Below, one piece after another: positions 34,463 to 38,980 of a stretch of DNA of 64,000 bases. The position numbers and the translations under genes were made by a program. Origin of the DNA: Fervidobacterium pennivorans (GTDB lineage Bacteria; Thermotogota; Thermotogae; Thermotogales; Fervidobacteriaceae). Within the stretch, counting starts at the first letter, position 1. The number at the start of each line of letters is the position of its first letter. The stretch spans positions 372,001-436,000 of the forward strand of contig NZ_CP011393.1 in the NCBI RefSeq assembly GCF_001644665.1. Reading direction: 5' to 3'. The notes beneath the pieces are model-generated. The model worked only from the letters and a program-made list of their open reading frames with translations, was not told the origin of the DNA and ran no database searches.

Positions 34463-35443
34463 TCAAACCTTATCAACATTGGTTACACATATTGCAGTTA
34501 TTCCCCTCATCTCAGACTCAGGGTATACTCCGTTGCCGGATTTGAACTTTATCGACACTGGACAACCTAAAACATTTTCGAGCTTTTCTGATATCTTTTC
34601 CCGATAATCTTTCAGCTTAATCGGTGAAATTATAACACAATCTGCGGACGATGGGAAGAAACCGCTTTTATTAACGGTTTGAACAACTATTTCCAACATC
34701 TCCAAGCTACTGCGCCCTTTGTTTTCGTCGTTTTCTGGAAAGATTGCTCCTATGTCTTTTTTTAAAGATACTCCAAGTAGGCTATCGATGAGCGCATGGC
34801 AAAGGACATCCGCATCGGAATGACCATGGAGTCCAAGTTGAGATTGTATGTCAACTCCACCAAGTATTAATTTCCTTCCCTGGACAAGTGGATGAGTATC
34901 CCATCCGAGACCTGTTAATGTATGGTAGTCGCAAAATTTCGAAAAACGTTTCAATTTTGGATGAACATGTGACCCTTCGTTAAAACTGAAACGTTCGTAC
35001 AAGTCAGGATCTATCGTATCGACTATTACTTTCTTGTACCTACTGGACTTGATGAACCTGTACAGAAGTAGTTCTTTCTGCTCTCCAGCCAGCGATACGA
35101 TATACAAATCATCAACCGAGAAATCAAACAATATCCTTTCAATAATGTAAATCATCTTTGCCCCTACGGGTATTATCTTCAATCCAAGTACACGGAACCA
35201 CTTTTGGTATCCGTGACGAAATTCCGCCTTGGTTGCATAGAGTAGAACCGCATCTACATTCTTCCCATCTTGAAGCACGATGCAATTTTTCTTTACAAAA
35301 GGCGGTATATCAGATTCAAAAGCCTTTTTCAAGTATTTCGGTGCATTTTTTCCGAAGAGTTCATCGTAAAACTCTTTCTTTTCTTCGTATATTAAACTTA
35401 CAACTTCGTCAATATTGTCTTTATTTACAACCGTTGTTTGCAA
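34463..35443 (-). CDS. ispF: Fusion of a GNAT-like domain with 2-C-methyl-D-erythritol 2,4-cyclodiphosphate synthase (IspF)
   Basis: 326 residues from a TTG six nt after AGAGGTGG; IspF alone is about 155. Residues 175-326 are IspF: GLGWDTHPL gives the zinc ligands D182 and H184, GLHGHSDADVLCHALIDSLLG gives H208, and DIGAIFPENDENK is conserved. The 3' active-site block is altered: the family TTTE is KSGN (301-304), and the GFTGRGEGI segment is YPESEMRGI. The N-terminal 170 residues look like a degenerate GNAT fold (VDAVLLYATKAEF, DDLYIVSLAGEQKE, VIVDTIDPDLYERFSF) without the acetyl-CoA loop. IspF closes the MEP ring for isoprenoids, and uppS downstream uses the product. N-terminal domain call is tentative. 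Confidence 0.78.
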   Translation of the reverse strand: MQTTVVNKDNIDEVVSLIYEEKKEFYDELFGKNAPKYLKKAFESDIPPFVKKNCIVLQDGKNVDAVLLYATKAEFRHGYQKWFRVLGLKIIPVGAKMIYIIERILFDFSVDDLYIVSLAGEQKELLLYRFIKSSRYKKVIVDTIDPDLYERFSFNEGSHVHPKLKRFSKFCDYHTLTGLGWDTHPLVQGRKLILGGVDIQSQLGLHGHSDADVLCHALIDSLLGVSLKKDIGAIFPENDENKGRSSLEMLEIVVQTVNKSGFFPSSADCVIISPIKLKDYREKISEKLENVLGCPVSIKFKSGNGVYPESEMRGITAICVTNVDKV

Positions 35444-35494
35444 AATACCACCTCTGTTTTTGGGCTTATTTGAGGATTAGTGTTAGTCCAAAGA

Positions 35495-36535: not shown

Positions 36536-37783
36536 TCACAAGAAGTAACCGCCACTTTCTAGTCTGGTGCCCTTTGGAACAATTTTATCGTTGCCGACAA
36601 CTACGTTTTTGCCAAACTCACAATCTTCTTCCACCACTGTGTCCATTCCAATGACAGTGATATGCGAATTGTACACTTTCTTATCGTATTTGCTCTCAGC
36701 ATATTCACCCAATCCTATTTTGCAACCATTTTTGATAATTGTGTTTTCCGCAATAATTGCATCTTCAATTATCACATTATCACCAATTTCTACCTTTGTC
36801 ATTATCACACTGTTTCTAACTACGCTGTTTTCTCCAATAGTTACACCTTGTGAAATGATACTGTTCTCAACTAGCCCGTGTATTTCACACCCTTCGCTAA
36901 CGATAGAATTTCTTACCTCACCACTTGGAGAGATATACGCCGGTTGCATCTCTTCGGATCTTGTATATATCCTCCAATTCGGGTCATGAATATTGAATGG
37001 CGGAATGGGTCTGACAAGTTCTAGGTTTGTCTCCCAGTAAGACATAATTGTTCCCACGTCTTGCCAGTAACCTTCAAACGGGTATGCGTAAACCCTTTCT
37101 GTAGACAATATCTTTGGAATAACGTTCTTCCCAAAATCGTGCTCACTTGCCTCGTCTTTCGCATCTTCGATAAGCACCTGCTTTATGAAATCCCAGTTGA
37201 AGACATAAATACCAAGGGAAGCGAGATTAGATTTCGGTTGCTTTGGCTTTTCCTGGAAGTCAATAATCTTGTAGTCTATGTCAGTTACCATTATACCGAA
37301 CCTGTGTGCCTCTGATATGGGCACTTCCATACAAGCTATGGTTGCCAGTGCACCCTTTGACACATGGTAATAAACGAACTCGCTGTAATCCATCGAATAT
37401 ATGTGATCACCTGATAAAACCACAACATATTCAGGATTGTATTCATCAACAAATTCTATGTTCTGATAAACAGCATCCGCAGTACCTTTATACCAAACAC
37501 TCTCAGTTAGCGTAGAATAAGGCTGGAGTATAGTCACTCCCCCACCTTTTCTGTCCAGGTCCCAAGGTTTACCAATTCCAATATGTTTGTTGAGTAGATG
37601 GGGTCTGTACTGAGCAAGTACTCCCACTCTGTAAATACCGGAGTTAACGCAATTGCTCAGAGTAAAATCTATTATCCTGTACTTTCCTCCGAATTGCACT
37701 GCTGGCTTGGGAATCTTCTCAGTCAGCACTCCCAACCTCGTTCCCTGACCACCAGCAAGTATCAACGCAACTACATTTGTCAT
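36536..37783 (-). CDS. glgC: Glucose-1-phosphate adenylyltransferase, catalytic subunit
   Basis: 415 residues from the ATG at 37783 behind GGGGGTG; the frame to 37855 has no site. The nucleotide site [16 protein letters not shown] and [19 protein letters not shown] are intact, as are [10 protein letters not shown] and EKPKQPKS. The C-terminal left-handed beta helix shows hexapeptide repeats ([28 protein letters not shown]). It makes ADP-glucose for glycogen and is usually allosteric. It is paired with glgD, 81 bp upstream. With malEFG in the same window the organism appears to import maltodextrin and store glucan. Confidence 0.95.
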
Positions 37784-37864
37784 TATAAACACCCCCAAAT
37801 TAAACATGGAAAAGCAAAGAAACAACAGCCATGAAAAGTGCGAAAAATCGCTCAATCCGGAATG

Positions 37865-38980
37865 TTAGACGACCATCCATTTTTCGAGTACAACAGGCTC
37901 AAAGTCTCCGACAAGCATCTGTTCAGCCCTTATTACACAGTTCTTATCAATTATCGCATTTCTAACAATTGCACCTTCCTCGATTACCGTATCCTGCATC
38001 ACTATAGAATTCTCAACCCTTGCACCAGCTTTTACGACAACTCCTCTAAACAACACAGAATTCTTAACGTTTCCCGAGATTATACAACCATCCGCTATTA
38101 TTGAATTGCTCACTTTTGCAGTATTGGTATATTTAGCAGGTGGATAGTCTTTTAGCTTAGTGTATACTTTACCGTATTTGACGAAAAGCTCCTCACGGAG
38201 CGCTTGACTGTTCAGAACTTCCATGTTCATCTTGTAATACTCGTTGATACCTTTTTTCACATTTCTCCAATATCCTTTGAATTCGTACGCATACACACGA
38301 AGTTTCGAAAGGTTCGGTATAACAACATCCAAAAGTAAATCGTACTTACCTGCTGGAACTGTGTCATATAGAAGTTCGAGTAGCAGGTATTTGTTGATAA
38401 AGTAAACCCCCAAGAAGGCTTTTCGAGTCGGTGGATTTTGGACCTTTTCTTTTATCTCTATAATCCTTCCGTCGGGTTCTGTAACAACCGTTCCATACTG
38501 TGTTATATCGTATGTGTCATCCAGCTCCTTAACAAGTAACGTAATGTCTGCACTTTTCGCAAAGTGGTATCTGAACAAGTCGTCGTAAAGCATTTTGTAT
38601 ATATGGTCCCCAGAGCCTATCAATACGTAATCTTCATCACCTCTTCGAAGCATTGTTGTGTTCTGGAAGATAGCATCCGCAGTCCCTCGGTACCAATATT
38701 CACCAGTCATACCAATGTAGGGCTGTAGTATGTAAAGACCGCCGTGTTTTCTATCAAGGTCCCATTCTTTCCCAGAACCGAGGTGGTCCATCAGACTTCT
38801 TGGATTGTATTGCGTTAAAACACCTACTTTGTATATTCCGGAATTCACCATGTTACTGAGCGTGAAATCTATTGCCCTGTATTTTCCAAAGACTGGAACT
38901 GCGGCACTTGCTCTTTTGTACACAAGCTTACCCAGAGCATCGCTTTTACCACCAGCCAAAATTAACCCCAACACCTTCAT
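37865..38980 (-). CDS. glgD: Glucose-1-phosphate adenylyltransferase-like regulatory subunit GlgD
   Basis: 371 residues behind GGGGGTGG. It is GlgC-like (FGKYRAIDFTLSNMVNSGIYKVGVLTQYNP, GSGDHIYKMLYDD, C-terminal beta-helix repeats) but the catalytic loop is GGKSDALGKL instead of [10 protein letters not shown], losing the arginine. That is the mark of GlgD, which in Firmicutes raises GlgC activity in a mixed tetramer. It is the first gene of the pair. IS copy 2 ends 23 bp before its start codon, so its native promoter is probably gone or moved. Confidence 0.92.
   Translation of the reverse strand: MKVLGLILAGGKSDALGKLVYKRASAAVPVFGKYRAIDFTLSNMVNSGIYKVGVLTQYNPRSLMDHLGSGKEWDLDRKHGGLYILQPYIGMTGEYWYRGTADAIFQNTTMLRRGDEDYVLIGSGDHIYKMLYDDLFRYHFAKSADITLLVKELDDTYDITQYGTVVTEPDGRIIEIKEKVQNPPTRKAFLGVYFINKYLLLELLYDTVPAGKYDLLLDVVIPNLSKLRVYAYEFKGYWRNVKKGINEYYKMNMEVLNSQALREELFVKYGKVYTKLKDYPPAKYTNTAKVSNSIIADGCIISGNVKNSVLFRGVVVKAGARVENSIVMQDTVIEEGAIVRNAIIDKNCVIRAEQMLVGDFEPVVLEKWMVV

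Follow-up and report, generated by a model that had tools for sequence, protein, structure and literature searches.

The closest described relatives of the protein analysed here are the canonical IspF enzymes (PF02542), represented by structures from E. coli, Burkholderia and Bacillus. In the accessible text of two reports, residue 135 (E. coli numbering, Ec) is almost always Glu or Asp (PMC3927217, PMC2151065), and the former gives Glu in 81% and Asp in 18% of the 854 sequences considered. Lys at another site of the same motif (Burkholderia numbering, Bc, Lys134) occurs in 20% of these 854 sequences, and the equivalent Lys touches the alpha-phosphate in Burkholderia IspF and the beta-phosphate in Thermus IspF; the zinc histidine of the Burkholderia enzyme is Bc His44 (PMC3927217, from the same portion of the text). 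Along the threefold axis of E. coli and Mycobacterium IspF, isoprenoid diphosphates are bound in a cavity lined by the equivalent of Ec Phe7, the amide of residue 139 holding the ligand (PMC2151065, accessible text), and a feedback role of this cavity is described as unsettled in the part of PMC5821942 available to us. The IspF encoded in the window (the whole stretch of 64,000 nucleotides from Fervidobacterium pennivorans that was analysed) shares with the canonical enzymes the domain, the zinc triad, the ribose-binding residues D230-G232 and the occurrence as a single copy beside the pathway. However, it differs from them in the change of Glu135 to Asn and of Ala131 to Phe, the loss of cis-Pro103, the replacement of Gly-Phe by Tyr-Pro at the mouth of the cavity, and the presence of an N-terminal GNAT domain.

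Both domains are encoded in one frame (Table 1), and a purine-rich sequence like AGAGGTGG precedes the starts of many relatives. On the 3' side, the gene is followed by frr and uppS, identified by Pfam RRF and Prenyltransf matches, and then by a gene of the cytidylyltransferase family; a DUF4899 gene and a glgC-like gene lie on the 5' side. The adjacency to frr-uppS reported in the preliminary description is therefore real in the window, but it holds for only part of the family to which the window belongs (f1, comprising Fervidobacterium and Thermosipho; families are designated here by f and a number), in which glgC upstream is the conserved neighbour. This comparison covered loci L002-L070, several of which are too short to extend beyond the direct neighbours. 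Two adjacent glgC-like genes, of 439 and 371 aa, are located upstream of ispF (window 36536-38980), the first of which consists of an NTP_transferase domain and hexapeptide repeats, and two glgC-like matches adjoin ispF in L046-L049 as well.

Table 1. Features of the fused ispF gene and its product, with positions in the window.
Feature	Position	Strand	Basis
Pseudo-GNAT-IspF fusion gene	34463..35443	-	326 aa, TTG start; single in-frame ORF; exact bounds from ORF check
Shine-Dalgarno-like AGAGGTGG, 4 bases before TTG	35448..35455	-	read by eye
Predicted degenerate GNAT domain, residues 1-171	34931..35443	-	AlphaFold2 pLDDT 85, pTM 0.83; Foldseek 4m85; VIA
Helical insert between beta3 and beta4 of the predicted GNAT fold, residues 72-110	35114..35230	-	12/39 residues invariant
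Place of motif A, residues 117-126 (SLAGEQKELL), (Q/R)xxGx(G/A) missing	35066..35095	-	script test
IspF (YgbB) domain, residues 177-323	34475..34915	-	Pfam PF02542 E 1.9e-39; PDB IspFs
D182, zinc ligand	34898..34900	-	D in 96/96 rows with a letter there
H184, zinc ligand	34892..34894	-	H in 96/96 rows with a letter there
H216, third zinc ligand	34796..34798	-	H in 97/97 rows; spacing equals Bc His36/His44
KSGN, residues 301-304 (Ec T132K, T133S, T134G, E135N)	34532..34543	-	alignments
YPESEMRGI, residues 307-315, replacing GFxGRGEGI at the mouth of the central cavity	34499..34525	-	Y307, P308 in 20/20 f1

The C-terminal part is an IspF domain, matching PF02542 with 135.9 bits (cut-off 26.7), and the best PDB sequence matches of the fused protein are IspF and IspD-IspF proteins; the score for TIGR00151 (the ispF equivalog domain), 112.1, is just below the cut-off of 116.45. 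The zinc triad, Asp-x-His ... His, is present. D182 and H184 were correctly named as ligands in the preliminary description, but the third is H216 and not H208, which lies eight residues before it and aligns with Ec His34/Bc His36, both histidines being present in the protein. The triad, together with D220, D230 and G232, is retained in all 20 f1 proteins. Elsewhere in the phylum, 36 of the 37 rows of f9 and f10 (e.g. L055, L017) have Asn or Ser in place of the ribose-binding Asp56, which the window protein retains as D230: Asn in 16 of 17 in f9, and 13 Ser and seven Asn among the 20 of f10.

Profile searches did not reveal the nature of the N-terminal part. The first 171 or so residues gave no significant Pfam match, none of the GNAT profiles exceeding its cut-off for the window domain (0 families), and a profile of the N-terminal domains (alignment A1, 20 proteins) found only chance-level matches among PDB sequences. 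The GNAT character was recognized from the fold instead. An AlphaFold2 model made from eight sequences shows the GNAT order of strands and helices; its best Foldseek match was the N-acetyltransferase 4m85 (E 3.4e-6, TM 0.66), and VIA-align gave Z 16.0 and rmsd 2.9 over 163 residues for the same entry. A GNAT fold is thus predicted both from the topology and from the significant match to solved GNATs. Two of the 20 f1 domains match Acetyltransf_7 (best E 0.017), and the profile shows kinship to two free-standing GNATs carrying GNAT Pfam domains, namely L092 (E 2e-6, probability 89.5) and, more weakly, L095 (E 7e-4, probability only 26.7).

In GNATs, the pyrophosphate of CoA is bound by motif A, (Q/R)xxGx(G/A). 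By a script test, none of the 20 fused domains contains this motif, whereas both L092 and L095 do, and in alignment A1 the corresponding stretch differs by three residues in length between the genera. The extra domain of about 170 residues with the look of a degenerate acetyltransferase, as initially described, is thus borne out by the fold and by the loss of the CoA-binding motif, and the sequence and model together indicate that the N-terminal part is a catalytically degenerate GNAT domain. The domain has a low dN/dS (0.09, 0.07 and 0.11 in the three closest pairs; 0.03-0.15 for the IspF domain in the same pairs), which shows that it is being kept by purifying selection; dN/dS was reported for the 22 closest of 190 pairs, synonymous sites being near saturation beyond the first three or four. 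Nevertheless, it evolves faster than the IspF domain, with mean pairwise identities of 0.52 vs 0.63 (190 pairs). Of the 29 invariant residues of the domain, 12 lie in the helical insert (Fisher p 0.012 against the rest, for a segment chosen after the alignment had been seen), and K72, R76 and K96 are invariant charged residues. Residues 71-110, which include the most highly conserved part, are also the least confidently modelled stretch of the domain (block means 64-78). The full-length model is ordered (pLDDT 86), with a very short linker, the last GNAT strand being at residues 164-170 and the first IspF strand beginning at 174.

The search for IspF covered 103 genomes of the phylum (all called Thermotogota here, a label inferred from the named records). 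IspF was found in 97 of them, and one of the six genomes without it has a completeness of 90% or more and a contamination of 5% or less. The fusion is present in all 20 f1 genomes, with open frames of 329-359 aa and proteins of 326-332 aa from the chosen starts, whereas in f2, f3 and the other Thermotogota families IspF is either unfused or has a different extension. So, although the N-terminal domain is universal in f1, it is not a common extension of IspF. The N-terminal profile matched the 20 fused genes and gave four other, weak matches in the 103 genomes, and it matched seven loci, all fused, in a wider collection of genome contigs; because the latter scan gave fewer members than the former, its silence elsewhere carries little weight. 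In the IspF tree, f1 forms a single group (98, starred), and two changes are required for the extension label, one of them being an unrelated-looking extension in f11. This is a different extension of about 120 residues before IspF in two genomes (L067, 2131-2490, and L068, 1928-2290), the end of which looks like a GNAT remnant by eye. Since no relationship emerged when this extension was compared with the N-terminal profile, and Pfam gave nothing convincing, we do not claim a common origin with the f1 domain. In one f10 genome (L071; G041:C7:407989-408445), IspF is split over three overlapping frames, representing either a pseudogene or sequencing errors. A literature search by title and beginning of abstract found nothing on a GNAT-IspF fusion or on E135N, although either could still have been published.

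The alignments to solved IspFs confirmed that KSGN (K301-S302-G303-N304) occupies the place of the (T/K)T(T/N)E motif and that YPESEMRGI replaces GFxGRGEGI, as first noted from the sequence. When one Thermotogota IspF was aligned to 3ike, the motif fell on AKTNE; taking 3ike to follow the Burkholderia numbering of PMC3927217, N304 corresponds to Glu137 (Ec Glu135) and K301 to Lys134. The window protein therefore has Asn where the canonical two-metal IspF has an acidic residue for Mg or Mn. From the frequencies at these two sites in the accessible portion of PMC3927217, Lys alone is common and Asn is the rare part of the combination. Lys at Ec132 and Asn at Ec135 occur together in all 81 readable IspFs of f1, f2, f3, f9, f10 and f11, and Thr and Glu in all 14 of f6, f7 and f8. 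In a tree of 95 rows built without the motif columns (a fragment from G033 and the split gene of G041 were dropped, their motifs being unreadable), this distribution requires a single change, and E135N thus arose once among the Thermotogota IspFs sampled. These counts cover Thermotogota genomes, and we do not claim a restriction to this phylum; for an outside comparison, a profile scan yielded three IspFs from viral contigs, all with Glu at 135. The conserved cis-proline of the cytosine pocket (Ec Pro103) is likewise absent from 81 of the 82 readable rows of the same six families, the single keeper being an f11 protein. It is I275 in the window and is missing from all 20 f1 rows, with a one-residue alignment gap adjoining. 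Ec Ala131 is Phe in the window protein. The f9 IspFs lack the loop after the motif.

Because the KSGN-type change is common to fused and unfused IspFs, it cannot have resulted from the fusion, and it does not serve as a mark of the fusion or of a changed substrate. As to whether the altered motif is normal in IspFs of thermophiles, it is the usual form in most Thermotogota, with or without the fusion, and is not unique to the window protein. In our view, the loss of the second-metal carboxylate throughout this lineage is of more interest than the fusion. At the threefold-axis cavity, Pro at 139, Trp at the Phe7 site and Tyr at the Gly138 site are each found in 20 of 20 f1 proteins. Only the Tyr is confined to f1 in the set aligned: Pro at 139 was also found in two of three f7 proteins, which are unfused and have Glu135, and Trp in three of 14 f3 proteins, so that neither is specific to the fusion.

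The fused protein most likely still makes MEcPP, to judge from its genome: it is the sole IspF there, and IspD, IspE, IspG, IspH and the N-terminal domain of DXR were also found. This genome consists of one contig of 2.06 Mb and was judged 99.98% complete, and the search for a second, canonical ispF, proposed in the preliminary description, gave no match other than the fused gene. Likewise, 96 of the 97 genomes with IspF have exactly one match, and the remaining one has the single gene split into three pieces. Fusion also affects another gene of the pathway: in L107 (1-2334, minus strand; near 1425419-1426234 of C1 in the genome of the window), IspH (LytB) is fused in one open frame to four or more S1 RNA-binding domains, and LytB-S1 fusions occur in other bacteria.

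We consider it moderately probable that the protein is a working MEcPP synthase with an active site of the Thermotogota type, fused to a non-catalytic GNAT module with a role in effector binding or in bracing the trimer. In this type, the zinc triad is kept and the second-metal carboxylate is lost (E135N), and Lys at 132 would probably neutralise the diphosphate in place of the second metal; Burkholderia IspF, aligned through 3ike, has Lys and Glu together, so that the replacement of the metal by the lysine is not a forced conclusion. A GNAT gene would have been joined in frame to the 5' end of ispF in the ancestor of Fervidobacterium and Thermosipho, the GNAT part then losing its CoA-pyrophosphate loop and being kept as a module whose conserved helices at residues 72-110 most likely serve to bind an effector or to brace the IspF trimer. 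A regulatory role is possible, and is our leading guess. Under a rather doubtful alternative, the domain is a passive spacer for thermostability or assembly that binds no ligand and simply braces the trimer in a thermophile, as might be expected from the loss of the CoA loop under low dN/dS and from the very short linker. However, the IspFs of f2, f3 and the other Thermotogota families do without this domain, which speaks against a general need, and the invariant K72, R76 and K96 suggest a binding surface. A bifunctional protein, in which the N-terminal domain binds CoA through an unusual loop and is active as an acyltransferase, is quite improbable: the GNAT fold extends over the whole domain and purifying selection is evident, but motif A is missing from all 20 proteins, in a stretch that is not even constant in length between the genera.

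A changed substrate, raised in the preliminary description, is not favoured either. Action of the IspF domain on another nucleotide diphosphate, with MEcPP no longer being made, could be suspected from E135N, A131F, T132K and the widespread loss of the cis-proline, but we regard it as very improbable, since the enzymes before and after this step of the MEP pathway are present and almost every genome with IspF has exactly one match. Hardly credible is the view that there are two adjacent genes with an internal translation restart and no true fusion. A possible start codon does lie within the 22 codons before GWDTH in 14 of the 20 genes, but this stretch contains none in the other six, and the IspF part is therefore not a separately translated gene; moreover, the frame is open throughout in 20 of 20, and the two domains are continuous in the full-length model. 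Bolder than the working synthase with a non-catalytic module, and rather unlikely, is a reading in which one Glu to Asn event gave most Thermotogota an IspF using zinc alone, with Lys on the diphosphate, and in which feedback sensing later moved to the dead GNAT domain as the f1 cavity was rebuilt. The rebuilding would be due to Trp at Phe7 and Tyr-Pro at Gly138-Phe139, the proline having no amide to offer to a diphosphate. The Asn-bearing lineage makes the need for the second metal directly testable with natural enzymes, and the fusion is a candidate for the regulation of isoprenoid supply in Fervidobacterium and Thermosipho.

The bifunctional IspD-IspF enzymes (8xhu, 1w55) likewise have a domain at the N-terminus of IspF. 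This partner is, however, the cytidylyltransferase of the same pathway, whereas that of Fervidobacterium is a predicted GNAT domain and IspD is separate. The free-standing Thermotogota GNATs L092 and L095 resemble the fused domain in an alignable beginning and a helical insert before strand 4, but they retain RxxGxG and exceed the GNAT Pfam cut-offs, while the fused domains lack the motif. The C-terminal domain of human O-GlcNAcase (3zj0, rank 29 in VIA-align), called a pseudo histone acetyltransferase in the title of the entry, is another GNAT fold within an enzyme of other activity; its partner enzyme is unrelated to IspF, and a common origin with the fused domain is not supported.
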